NCBI GenBank assembly: GCA_030532425.1
Contig: JAUNLD010000022.1
Location: 1-40,461 of the forward strand
Direction of reading: 5' to 3'
Length of the DNA stretch: 40,461 bases
Source of the DNA: Lautropia sp.
Lineage (GTDB): Bacteria; Pseudomonadota; Gammaproteobacteria; Burkholderiales; Burkholderiaceae_E
In this document: positions 15,726 to 20,717 of the stretch, in pieces
How positions within the stretch are numbered: position 1 is the stretch's first letter
Layout: every line of letters begins with the position of its first letter
The notes under the pieces: model-generated
Seen by the model: only the letters and a program-made list of their open reading frames with translations
Told to the model about the DNA's origin: nothing
Database searches by the model: none
Program-made: the position numbers and the translations under genes

Positions 15726-15751
15726 TGTGATGATACATTGATGTTATATAG

Positions 15752-15788
15752 AGCCATGGCACTTGATACGAGTGTCATGGCTTTTTTC
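15752..15788 (+). terminator. Rho-independent terminator of clpB
   Basis: A 12-base stem (15752-15763 with 15771-15782, one G:T pair) with a seven-base loop is followed by a T run (15782-15787). It sits 26 bases after the clpB stop and cleanly separates clpB from the low-GC island. Confidence 0.88.
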
Positions 15789-15950: not shown

Positions 15951-16178
15951 ACCACCTGAAACCCTTACATCTCATCAAAACCGAGGAAACTATGAACAAC
16001 GATGTATAGCTAACCCAGACCATTCCTCTGGACCGCTTTGGGTTTTGGGGCTGAGGCAGAAACGGGAACAAGCTACTATCAACGTCAGGCCGAACAAGCC
16101 TCGGAAACCCGACTCAAACCAACGGGCCTTCTCGATTCCCGGGGCGGTTTCCCATGGATTTACATGAGAATCCACGCT
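15951..16178 (+). other. Intermediate-GC stretch, no firm gene
   Basis: GAGGAAACT precedes an ATG at 15991, a good start signal, but the frame closes after five codons (MNNDV). Overlapping open frames of 60-80 codons exist on both strands here, none with recognisable content. This may be the wreck of a gene, or a leader or small RNA region. Confidence 0.3.
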
Positions 16179-16481
16179 CTAAGCCAAGACAGCCCTACCG
16201 GAAATCGCGATAATTACCTGAAGCGTGACAACGAACACTATTACCCAGATCGGTAGAACAATTTTACCTTGGACAGACAGCCTTCCCAAATACCCTCCTC
16301 CTAATATAATGCCCAAAGATAAAAATAATGAAGAAAAACTGATCCTTCCAAGCCCGTCACCAATCGATTTGGAAATAGAAAGCAAAATCGTATGATAAGC
16401 AAAAATTCCAATCACAACATTTAGCGGAATATACAGACCACCGGGTGGCGAAACTTTTTCTCGTTTGATGTGATGGCTCAT
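16179..16481 (-). CDS. Small hydrophobic membrane protein, possible bacteriocin immunity
   Basis: A 100-residue protein with three likely membrane segments (around YIPLNVVIGIFAYHTILL, FSSLFLSLGIILGGGYLG and VLPIWVIVFVVTLQVIIAI). A strong GGAGG ribosome site seven bases before the ATG supports translation. The ATG overlaps the stop (ATGA) of a short open frame upstream that ends SSGGIS, suggesting coupling to something now decayed. It lies downstream of, and on the same strand as, the bacteriocin-like pseudogene. Small multi-pass proteins in that position are often immunity proteins, but no sequence feature proves this. Confidence 0.55.
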   Translation of the reverse strand: MSHHIKREKVSPPGGLYIPLNVVIGIFAYHTILLSISKSIGDGLGRISFSSLFLSLGIILGGGYLGRLSVQGKIVLPIWVIVFVVTLQVIIAISGRAVLA

Positions 16482-16716: not shown

Positions 16717-16952
16717 TCATACATCGCCCCCCGCGTAGTATCCTGCTGCAGCGCCTACCGCAGCACCAGCGACAACACCGATAGGTCCCATAAAGGCGCC
16801 AATTCTCCTCCCCATCATGGCCCCAGCGCGTGCACCAGCCCATCCTCCTGCTGCGGCCCCACTTGCAACCCAGTACCCGCAGTAGCAACAGCAGCGTCCC
16901 CCCTATCAGCTCCGCTTACCATTGCGATTTCCTTGTTCGTCAAATTTCTCAT
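16717..16952 (-). pseudogene. Frameshifted bacteriocin-like gene (double-glycine-type leader)
   Basis: From ATG 16952 the frame reads MRNLTNKEIAMVSGA, a typical leader of class II bacteriocins cut after Gly-Gly/Gly-Ala, then an Ala-rich start. It ends as an out-of-frame tail at 16815 (45 residues). In the -1 frame, starting right after stops near the leader end, the DNA encodes GYWVASGAAAGGWAGARAG followed by IGAFMGPIGVVAGAA and AAAGYYAGGDV, ending at TGA 16717. That is a glycine-zipper core as in two-peptide bacteriocins. One extra base between 16903 and about 16875 would join leader and core into a precursor of about 78 residues. A G6 run (16898-16903) is one candidate site. Whether this is mutation, slippage or sequencing error cannot be decided here. 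Confidence 0.6.
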
Positions 16953-17029: not shown

Positions 17030-17056
17030 TGTAATGACCCACCAGAACCTGCACAG
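17030..17056 (+). repeat. IS left terminal inverted repeat
   Basis: It starts TGTAATGACCCACCAGAA and continues through CCTGCACAG. It matches the inverted right end (17938-17965) with two substitutions and one single-base gap. Confidence 0.8.
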
Positions 17057-17057
17057 T

Positions 17058-17910
17058 TCAGGCCGCTAAAGTGTAAGCTTGAGCGGGGGTCTTCATGGCC
17101 AGCGCTGTGTAGCTGCGGCTGGTGAACACCAGGCCGTTGTCCGAGCGCAGCAGAAACGGTGTCGGCACGCGGCCCAGGCAGCCAAAGCGCGCAATCAATG
17201 CCTGTTCCAGCGCCGCCTCCGGCGTGCGTGAGCGGGCGCTGCGCGACAGGTGCCAGCCCAGAATCTCGCGGCTGTGGCAGTCGATCACCAGGGTCAGCGT
17301 CGCCCAGCCATCCTTGCCGCTCCAGATGCGGCACAGGTCCGTGGCCCAGCGCTCATCGGGTCTGGAGGCCACCGGGGGCAGTGCCTGAATCCGGGGCCGA
17401 AATCCCACGGGACGCTTGCGCACCTGCCAGCCCTTGAGCTGGAAGATGCGCTGCACCGTGTTCTTGTTCATGCCCAGCAGCCACGCCACCGTGCGGTATC
17501 CAGAGGACGGGTTTTCCTCGATCATGGCCTTGACCGGCTCGACCAGCGCCTTGCGAAGCCTGGGAGCTGCCTTCCTGACGGGGCGGTAGTAGACGGTGCG
17601 CCGCGGCACCCCAAACCAGCGGCACAGCTTGCTGATCGGTACGTGGCGCCAGCATCGCTTCGCCATACGCCTCCTGCAGCTCCTTGAGCTGGCGCTCGTA
17701 CTGGCTGCGCAGGTCTTGCGGGTTGGCCTTCAGGGCGTTCTCCATGCCCCGCTTGCCTTCTTCAATCCAGGCTTCGATCTCGGATGGCGGTACATCGTGT
17801 GCCCGGCTGGCCTCGGCCACCGTGGTCTTGCCCTGGATGATCTCCAGAATCAGCGCGATCTTGCGCCGCACCGTCCAGCGCTTGATCTCTTCGTTCATCA
17901 ACATGCTCAT
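17058..17910 (-). pseudogene. Decayed IS3-family transposase (orfA-orfB)
   Basis: orfA starts at ATG 17910 with an N-terminal helix-turn-helix part (MNEEIKRWTVRRKIALILE, then KTTVAEASRAHDVPPSEIE) and runs to LQEAYGEAML near 17660. There a deletion removes the orfA end and the orfB start and shifts frame. orfB resumes with PISKLCRWFGVPRRTVYY and holds catalytic DDE residues in WATDLCRIW and RSDNGLVFTSRSY. After SYTAL it jumps directly to MKTPAQAYTLAA, the family C-terminus. About 80 residues including the catalytic Glu are missing; the joint contains GCGCTGG (17099-17105), a likely short repeat for the deletion. The full-length comparison is from memory of the family. Confidence 0.82.
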
Positions 17911-17937
17911 CGGGCGCAGGCCTCGTAACACTAACAC

Positions 17938-17965
17938 CTGAGCAGGTTTCTAGTGGGTCATTACA
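17938..17965 (-). repeat. IS right terminal inverted repeat
   Basis: Read on the minus strand it starts TGTAATGACCCACTAGAA and continues through CCTGCTCAG. Its first bases supply the TAA stop (17961-17963) of the adhesin frame. Confidence 0.8.
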
Positions 17966-20717
17966 GATGCTCCCACAGCTGCGGCAGCGCCGTCAGGGCG
18001 TGCACCGTGGCGCTGGTGGCGTGCGGGGCCGGGGGGCTGCCGGTGGCCGCCGCCACCTCATGCGCGCCCGCGCCTGTGGCCGTGCCGTTGCCCCCCGCGG
18101 CCGCCGCGCCGCCGCTCTGGCCAGGGGCCGCAGCAGACGGCGGGTTGCCCGGCAGGCTGGCGATGTCCTGCTGGCCCTGATCCAGCAGCTCCGCCAGCGA
18201 CAGCCGGCTGCCACCGGGCAGACCCTTGGTGGTGCTGTCCGCGCCGATGCCGCGCGTGCCCGGGGTGCCACGGACGGGCGAGGGGCCCTGGATGGTGATG
18301 TCGTCGCCTGAAAACCGGGTGGGCCCGTTGCCGGCGCCGTCCGTGACGTTGAAGCTCACCCCATACTTCTGGCTGCCGCCGGTTGCGGCGGCCGGCATCT
18401 CGAAGGGGGCGGAGGTCCAGCTGCCATCGGCACCGGCCTTGATGCCTGTCTGGGTCTTGCCGGCCACGGTGATGTCCAGGGTTGCGTTCGCCTCGGCCTT
18501 GCCGGCCAGGATCACGCCGTCGCGCCGTTCGGCATCGGTGATGATCGGGCTGGCATGCCCGTCGTAGGTGATGCGGGTGGGCTTTTCGACCACGCGGTCG
18601 ATGGTGAACTCATGCCGTGCCTCGGCCTTGTCCGTGCTGCCGGCCACGGTGGCCGTGGCGATCAGGGTGTGCGGGCCACCGGCCTGGGGCTGGATGGCGG
18701 TCAGTCCGGTGTCGATCGACCATTGTCCCTGGGCGTTGGCGGTGCCCCGGGCAATGACGGTGGCGTTGTCGACGGACAGTGCGACGCTGGCACCGGGCTG
18801 CGCCGTTCCCGTGATGGTGATCCGGTCGTCCTCGGTTTCGTTGACGATGTTGTCAGCCGTCAGGGGGCCGGTGATGGTCGTGCCACCCGTGCCTCCTGTA
18901 CCTCCTGTACCGCCCGTGCCTCCGGTATCGGCTGGCGCGCCTTGCAGTGTCAGGTTCTGCTGGACGGGGGTGCTGACGTTGCCGGCCTTGTCCTCGGCGG
19001 TGATGCTCAGCGTGGCCGGTTTCGTGCTGCCGCTCTCGACCGCCGGCAGGTCGGTGTCATGCAGCGTCACTTTCCAGGTCCCATCGGCGGCGGCCGTGGT
19101 GGTGGCGGTCTTGCCGCCTGTGACGGCCACCGTTACCGTTGCGCCGGCTTCGGCGCTGCCGGTGATGTTCACGCCGTCTCTGGCTTCCTGGCTGGTGATG
19201 GTGGTGTCGCCCCCTTCGACCCCGACCCGGGTCACGGCGTTCGGGGCCGTCCTGTCCACCGTGAATTCGCGGGTACCGGTGGCGGTGTTGCCCGCGGGCG
19301 TGGTGCTGGTGGCGCTCAGGGTGTACTTGCCGTCGGCCAGCGTGGCCGGCAGGCTGATGTGGGTGCTCCAGGCGCCACCGGCATCGGTGGTGGCCTGTAC
19401 CGGCAGCTCGGTGACCTGGTTCCTGCTGTTGGTGATCCGCAGCGTCAGCGTGGCGCCGGGTTCGGCCACGCCATCGATCCGGATCGGCGCTGCGGCCTCG
19501 GCCGCATTGACCGTGTCATCGGGGCCGGCAATGTTGCCGATGACGGACTGCCTGCCGGCCGTGTTCATCGTGATCCGGGTGGTGTTTGCCGGGCCACGGT
19601 TGCCGGCGGCGTCCAGCGCCGTTACCGTGACGGTGTATTCACCATCCTTGTCCGGCAGTTCGGCGGCCGCCAGACTGGTGCTCCACCTGCCGTCGGCATC
19701 CACGGCGACCAGACGCGTGGTGTTGCCCACTTTCAGCTCCACCGAGCCGTTGGCTTCCGATGTTCCGGAAAAGGTCACGCCGGCGGCCCGCTCTGCGGCG
19801 GTGATGATGCTGTCGCCCGCCACCGGCGAGATGTCGGCCTGGGCGGGCGGCGTGTTGTCGAAGGTCAGCGTGGTTGCCGGCAGGCTGGCCTGTACCCCGT
19901 TGAGGGTACCCACCACTTCCATGGTGTTGCTGTCGGACAGGCCGCGGGCGGGCAGGGTGCCGGAGCCGGGCTGGGCGGTCTGAAGGTTGACGGACCAGTT
20001 GCCGCTGCTGTCGGCCGTGGTGGCGTAGGTGACATCGGCCCGCTGGTCGGCGTCGGTGTCGATGCGTATCTGCACATCCGTCCCGGCCTCGGCCGTGCCC
20101 GAAATGGTTGGAAAGCGCGTATTGAAGACGTTGCCGGTCCGGACGGCGAGGGCGAGGTTGCCCTGTGCGGTCTGGCCGCCCGAATCACCGCCGCCGCCGC
20201 CACCACCACCCAGTGCCAGGCCCAGCACGGCGGCACCCCCCAGGCTATACAGCAGTGGCCGGGTCGAACCCTCGTCCAGCATCGGCAGGGTGGGCGCCTG
20301 AAAGCCCGGGTCGTACAGCACGAAATCGCCGTCCGGCAGCGCCCCCAGCGGCTGGGTGCCGACATCGGCCAGCACCACGCCGGTGCTGCCCAGCTCGCCG
20401 GCGGCCACCGCATCGGCACTGGCAGATCCATCGTCGACGCTGACTGTGCAGCGGTCAGCGGCGCTGCAGGTGCGGTAGTAGCCTTCCAGAATGATCGTGG
20501 CGACTGCGGTGCCCTGTGCGGCGCCACTGGCAGCCGGAATGCCCTCGATCACCAGGTCGCTGTCGACCCGCAACACGCGCAGCTGCGCGGCATCCACCTC
20601 ATCCCTGTCGAGCCGGAACTGGTGCCCCGGTGCCACCCGTACCCGGTTGTTGCCCGGCCTGAGCTGAAGCTGTTCGATGCTGCCGTCCAGCATGCGCTGG
20701 ATATCGAGTCGTGCCAT
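17961..20717 (-). CDS. BapA-like adhesin with Ig-like repeats, 3' end cut by IS
   Basis: A 918-residue surface or secreted protein. Residues 1-150 resemble the N-terminal prefix of BapA-type biofilm proteins (RVDSDLVIEG, then FVLYDPGF). There follows a hydrophobic patch with a glycine run (LGLALGGGGGGGG, about residue 180) and about six Ig-like repeats of 90-110 residues (about 196-800), each with an ISGTAEAGTDV-type strand and an ADGRWSTSL-type strand. A GGT repeat linker lies between repeats 4 and 5. The C-terminal 110 residues are Ala/Gly/Ser-rich. The stop codon lies in the terminal repeat of the adjacent IS, so the native C-terminus, perhaps including a type I secretion signal, has probably been lost. 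No secretion genes are nearby. Confidence 0.75.
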   Translation of the reverse strand: MARLDIQRMLDGSIEQLQLRPGNNRVRVAPGHQFRLDRDEVDAAQLRVLRVDSDLVIEGIPAASGAAQGTAVATIILEGYYRTCSAADRCTVSVDDGSASADAVAAGELGSTGVVLADVGTQPLGALPDGDFVLYDPGFQAPTLPMLDEGSTRPLLYSLGGAAVLGLALGGGGGGGGDSGGQTAQGNLALAVRTGNVFNTRFPTISGTAEAGTDVQIRIDTDADQRADVTYATTADSSGNWSVNLQTAQPGSGTLPARGLSDSNTMEVVGTLNGVQASLPATTLTFDNTPPAQADISPVAGDSIITAAERAAGVTFSGTSEANGSVELKVGNTTRLVAVDADGRWSTSLAAAELPDKDGEYTVTVTALDAAGNRGPANTTRITMNTAGRQSVIGNIAGPDDTVNAAEAAAPIRIDGVAEPGATLTLRITNSRNQVTELPVQATTDAGGAWSTHISLPATLADGKYTLSATSTTPAGNTATGTREFTVDRTAPNAVTRVGVEGGDTTITSQEARDGVNITGSAEAGATVTVAVTGGKTATTTAAADGTWKVTLHDTDLPAVESGSTKPATLSITAEDKAGNVSTPVQQNLTLQGAPADTGGTGGTGGTGGTGGTTITGPLTADNIVNETEDDRITITGTAQPGASVALSVDNATVIARGTANAQGQWSIDTGLTAIQPQAGGPHTLIATATVAGSTDKAEARHEFTIDRVVEKPTRITYDGHASPIITDAERRDGVILAGKAEANATLDITVAGKTQTGIKAGADGSWTSAPFEMPAAATGGSQKYGVSFNVTDGAGNGPTRFSGDDITIQGPSPVRGTPGTRGIGADSTTKGLPGGSRLSLAELLDQGQQDIASLPGNPPSAAAPGQSGGAAAAGGNGTATGAGAHEVAAATGSPPAPHATSATVHALTALPQLWEHL

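Follow-up and report, generated by a model that had tools for sequence, protein, structure and literature searches.

A double-glycine-type leader and a glycine-rich core in separate frames beside a candidate immunity gene in Lautropia sp., a probable remnant of a class II microcin-like cassette

Introduction

Class II microcin systems are listed with five parts that include a precursor, an immunity protein and a C39-peptidase ABC transporter (PMC9746304). In a contig of Lautropia sp. (JAUNLD010000022.1, positions 1 to 40,461; this whole stretch of 40,461 nt is hereafter the window), an original prediction described a bacteriocin precursor whose leader and core are read in different frames, and offered a recent pseudogene, an assembly error or slippage at a run of six G as explanations. 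The locus raises the question of whether leader and core belong to one gene and, if so, why they stand out of frame.

Results

Both parts were present on the minus strand between 16717 and 16952, as predicted: a leader frame and a separate Gly/Ala core frame (Table 1). The leader ORF (16952-16815) starts with MRNLTNKEIAMVSGA and has a predicted cut after residue 15; the core frame, open as far as 16717, reads GYWVASG...GYYAGGDV and is Gly-rich up to its stop. The leader end is of the kind (GG or GA) found in class II microcin systems; the single-frame precursor of such systems is not seen here, as the two frames overlap and neither holds both parts. A search of all six frames of the window with a strict consensus motif for such leaders gave a single hit, and none arose in 150 order-2 Markov surrogates of equal length. 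Searches with family models gave only matches below cut-off: Pfam MccV in the leader frame (E 0.1) and Pfam glycine-zipper models in the core frame. Pfam Bacteriocin_IIc (PF10439) had no listed match to the window pieces and reached 16.3 bits, against a gathering cut-off of 27.1, with the intact relative P0003. Among the scanned precursors and immunity-like ORFs, no Pfam or NCBIfam model rose above its own cut-off.

Table 1. Features of the split precursor locus and its surroundings (window positions)
Feature	Position	Strand	Remarks
Leader frame of split precursor	16815..16952	-	45 aa; double-glycine-type leader, GA end
Core frame of split precursor	16717..16887	-	Gly/Ala-rich, GxxxG-like spacing
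G6 run	16898..16903	-	slippage site of the original prediction; frames probably part 3' of the run
Candidate immunity gene	16179..16481	-	100 aa, intact; three hydrophobic helices by hydropathy; same-genus homologs
IS3-family element, apparently shortened	17030..17965	-	77 nt upstream of precursor ATG
End remnant of another IS3-family element (probable)	16040..16160		shared 41-47 nt

Intact relatives were reached via the neighbouring 100-aa ORF, whose homologs led to precursors in the same-genus genome G001. There we found two intact tandem precursors of 75 aa each, in one frame, with a leader similar to that of the window and each paired with a small membrane ORF (two pairs). The motif MR.L...EI..VSGADRGDA is common to the window leader and the intact relative P0002. 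When the intact G001 precursor P0003 was searched against the nine genus genomes, the window's own genome gave three matches at E <= 0.1, two of them at the window locus: residues 1-31 with 16952-16863 (E 0.066; leader frame) and residues 22-69 with 16866-16735 (E 0.03; core frame), the third lying elsewhere (E 0.062). Each is weak alone (BLASTP of the core match also gave a weak E of 0.020), and their strength lies in two of the three falling together and being collinear. The intact same-genus relatives thus uphold the claim of a leader-bearing, bacteriocin-like precursor in two frames, while its role as a bacteriocin is still something we infer from sequence.

We built a profile (A2) from six intact precursors, supplied by G001 and G006 and none by the window; across 74 genomes it recovered the window leader at 16857-16952 with E 1.2e-4. 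At E <= 0.01 it gave 21 matches in 16 of the 74. Seven start at profile position 1 (five in G001, one in G006 and the window leader), so the window leader is the only match that reaches the leader outside the genomes that supplied the profile. The other 14 enter the profile later (positions 14-23) and lie in frames 159-678 residues long; they resemble glycine-zipper stretches within longer proteins. In a set of eight loci plus the window, tblastn with the window leader found the G001 leaders (E 1.3e-5 and 3.1e-4). The core as query gave nothing convincing in 61 genomes, plasmids or genome_contigs. Its sequence P0001 had matches at E <= 1 in 50 of the 61 genomes (the window's own genome among them); the strongest in another genome (E 0.0042) lies inside a 385-aa frame. 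Gly/Ala frames are common, and a core search alone is therefore uninformative. Plasmids searched with P0001, P0003 and the 100-aa ORF gave no match. Two genome_contigs scans yielded no confirmed relative, and both reported 593 candidate stretches despite different queries, so we give them little weight. A viral_contigs scan with P0003 found two loci whose matches are confined to the core (residues 22-63 and 39-67; E 6e-6 and 5e-6, computed against candidate stretches only).

That Gly/Ala frames are so common would suit a reading in which both frames are open by chance, have nothing to do with each other and leave the small membrane ORF as the only gene here. We rejected this reading as very improbable, since the leader was recovered independently, the frames are collinear with intact P0003 and the leader motif did not arise in the surrogates; in addition, the downstream ORF has relatives among the ORFs found after intact precursors.

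The 100-aa ORF lies 235 nt downstream of the precursor. At E <= 0.01 its homologs are confined to one genus and occur in 4 of the 74 family genomes, the window's own being one of them; the others are G003 (three, the best at 70% identity), G007 and G001 (weak, E 0.002). Compared with the G001 ORFs that follow intact precursors it is distant (18-20% identity), and in G003, home of the close homolog, no recognised precursor lies beside that homolog. An alignment of seven immunity-like proteins (the window, three from G003, one from G007 and two from G001) had one invariant column, with the other six 18-68% identical to that of the window; hydropathy predicted two helices for one G001 member and three for each of the other six. 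Between the window ORF and its G003 counterpart, dN was 0.20 and dS 0.83 over 98 codons (Fisher p 1.4e-7, with rounded counts), suggesting that the ORF is constrained against G003; this dN/dS is silent on whether constraint outlasted the precursor break. A blastn alignment of the window with G003 covers only the ORF plus about 20 nt upstream. The profile of the seven sequences matched 3 of 399 sampled order genomes, in one genus of 158; all three had supplied rows (G003 was absent from the sample), and the sole match not there by construction was the weaker of two in G007 (E 1.5e-7). Searched against solved structures, the family gave no match. We regard the 100-aa ORF, on its sequence features, as a candidate immunity gene. 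Immunity-like genes were also seen at G007:C1:719678 and 118409 and on G003 contigs C101 and C147, and in neither genome was a precursor or a C39 ABC exporter detected.

The original prediction had named the lack of a leader-peptidase transporter as a result that would speak against it, and this is what we obtained: searches of the window's own genome (88.8% complete) turned up no C39-peptidase ABC transporter. A 754-aa type I exporter, which we take to be a LapB-type adhesin exporter, had a C39-like match of 20.1 bits (Pfam cut-off 22) with a catalytic cysteine that was not obvious by eye; a distant HlyD (25% identity) lies beside the C85 exporter. Two of the nine genus genomes, G001 and G006, carry C39 ABC transporters, which are 84% identical to each other, have QECGLACLAMI near the start and lie close to HlyD- and TolC-type genes; close HlyD was found in these two of the nine only. 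The G001 exporter genes sit elsewhere on the genome, away from the precursors. Beside the G001 transporter we also saw two small ORFs with leader-like starts (L077 6951-7159 and from 7517, minus strand), the second less canonical. The immunity-like family occurs in four of the nine genus genomes (own genome G000, G001, G003 and G007), in three of which no such exporter was found. This absence is firm only for G007, which is one contig and 99% complete, with G003 at 80% and the own genome at the completeness given above.

The single C39 domain above the Pfam cut-off in the own genome is in a stand-alone 313-aa protein on C94; the NCBIfam models that come nearest to it, FilB and FapD, score far below cut-off. 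The leader could be meant for this peptidase and not for an ABC transporter, as proposed for the Nap peptides of Neisseria, whose islands combine a C39 peptidase with a FapF-like channel (PMC11798529). We consider this highly unlikely: a regular expression found no leader-like ORF in 14 kb around C94, and G007 has a C39 match too (a 351-aa frame) without a precursor match.

The run of six G proposed as a slippage site exists at its predicted position. Judged by likeness to relatives, the frames probably part somewhere between ~16890 and 16857, 3' of this run, as the leader-frame matches continue beyond it to 16863 (P0003) and 16857 (profile A2). Over the eight residues past the run, BLOSUM62 sums against P0002 were +11 for the leader frame vs -7 and -9 for the other frames, and against P0003 +5 vs -9 and -9; the comparison with L075 points the other way (-3 vs +4 and -3) but spans two residues, too short to weigh. 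Since likeness to intact relatives carries on in the leader frame past the run, slippage there is disfavoured. When the window was divided into 805 overlapping 252-nt stretches, 101 held a G or C run of six or more, so that a G6 run is ordinary.

A longer run marks a second precursor of G001 with leader and core in two frames (L094 4371-4137, the same as L075 386-149; minus strand). Both of its frames match an intact G006 precursor (E 3.5e-8 and 1.1e-9 when this 10-kb locus alone was searched); the core-frame match starts at a G9 run, and the leader-frame match passes the run at lower likeness. No other G or C run in the window and the 12 loci scanned reaches nine; two of eight occur. A small membrane ORF similar to that of G006 (E 3.8e-4) follows. 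By its sequence, this split G001 precursor is a better switching candidate than the window gene and possibly a phase-variable bacteriocin; a literature search for phase-variable bacteriocins led to a paper on Propionibacterium acnes. For the window gene itself, a phase-variable state, switched off via slippage in a G run, would have parallels in the G9 junction and in napR, a GG-leader peptide gene of Neisseria with a reported poly-G tract of 6 to 12 (PMC11798529). We hold it quite improbable, given that the window run is an ordinary G6 that leader-frame likeness passes and that no exporter was found.

Further observations were made at other precursor loci. At L069 1501-3203 in G006, a 70-aa membrane ORF and then a 382-aa ORF come after an intact GG-leader precursor; by eye, the 382-aa ORF has the look of a cupin/JmjC-type oxygenase. 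In G001, the tandem precursors at L050 4649-4876 and 5485-5712 are identical in protein from GAAGFG to the end, with dS 1.09 and dN 0.07 over the whole gene.

G+C is 0.41 in the 100-aa ORF and 0.45 in its flank vs 0.65 in the window. The upstream IS3-family element has no direct target repeat at its edges (ATC and GAT). Its second ORF has 202 aa and plasmid relatives align with query 1-886 of 956, from which we take this copy to be shortened internally. Within the probable remnant at 16040-16160, 41-47 nt are common to sites beside G005 transposase ORFs and to the G006 precursor locus. An AGGAG precedes the start codon in four of four inspected relatives and is lacking before the window precursor. 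The one Rfam match (15746-15782) was far below gathering score. On the far side of the IS, an ORF of Ig-like-repeat adhesin type (17961-20717, minus strand) has an end that overlaps the IS edge and was therefore probably cut by the IS or a rearrangement.

The own genome is a single draft assembly of 125 contigs, and with 40 of 123 candidates scored, a copy of one IS end lay at the end of eight contigs, the other IS end gave six more matches (three within 10 nt of a contig start) and two partial copies lay on C116 and C115. Such contig ends, together with a core frame that remains open and glycine-rich to its stop, would fit a gene that is intact in the living strain, with the frame break a sequencing or assembly error. 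The copy here is, in the same scoring, the only full-length match to itself in its genome, so a false join of the contig is not obvious; moreover, the exporter that was not found, the IS just upstream without a target repeat and the missing AGGAG all point to decay. We therefore think an error rather unlikely. Among the explanations first offered for the break, decay to a pseudogene is thus the favoured one, with an assembly error possible and slippage at the G6 run disfavoured.

Discussion

Taken together, we consider it probable that a class II microcin-like cassette was acquired and that the window locus is what is left of it, with a decayed precursor and a retained immunity-like gene. Like the class II microcins of Enterobacterales, the locus has a GG/GA leader end, a short precursor and an adjoining small membrane protein, and the sister genomes G001 and G006 have a C39 ABC transporter, HlyD and TolC; unlike them, the window precursor is out of frame, its exporter was not found, no family match was above cut-off and the host is another one (PMC9746304). 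Moraxella catarrhalis mcbABCI similarly has a very short precursor with a GG leader, followed by a short immunity ORF without database relatives (PMC2761928). The mcb exporter genes are adjacent, in contrast to those of G001, and killing and immunity are proven for mcb (PMC2761928) and predicted for the window locus. The nap island of Neisseria shares GG-leader peptides on acquired low-G+C DNA and a candidate immunity gene, but pairs them with a C39 peptidase and a FapF-like channel where G001 and G006 have an ABC exporter, and the Nap peptides showed no antibacterial effect (PMC11798529).

The double-glycine peptides and immunity-like proteins form a set seen so far, in the sequences searched, in one genus only. 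A genome survey of double-glycine peptides in Gram-negative bacteria was reportedly published by Dirix and others in 2004, and the peptide set found here may overlap the kinds covered there.

In relatives with a working system, cleavage of the ~75-aa precursor would take place after GG/GA, and export would run through the C39-peptidase ABC transporter together with HlyD and TolC; the membranes of competing bacteria would be the target of the Gly-rich core, and the downstream small membrane protein would protect the producer. We infer the antibacterial action, the immunity function, the processing and the reality of the break. With the precursor out of frame, an IS 77 nt upstream and no exporter found, no mature peptide is expected from the window locus. 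The intact immunity-like gene may continue to shield the cell when neighbours produce a related peptide.

The window locus is ordinary in kind and useful as a lead: it adds double-glycine peptides and immunity-like membrane proteins that the searched family models did not recognise above cut-off. For the genus as a whole, double-glycine precursors could be contingency genes that are turned off or lost by frame breaks (such as those at the G9 junction in G001 and in the split window copy) while their immunity genes stay intact and constrained, an idea that we think unlikely as it stands. If it were true, many lineages would be silent but protected, even G003 and G007 without a detected exporter or precursor; and the immunity-like genes without a detected precursor or exporter, together with the one G9 junction run, make this idea of silent but protected lineages directly testable.
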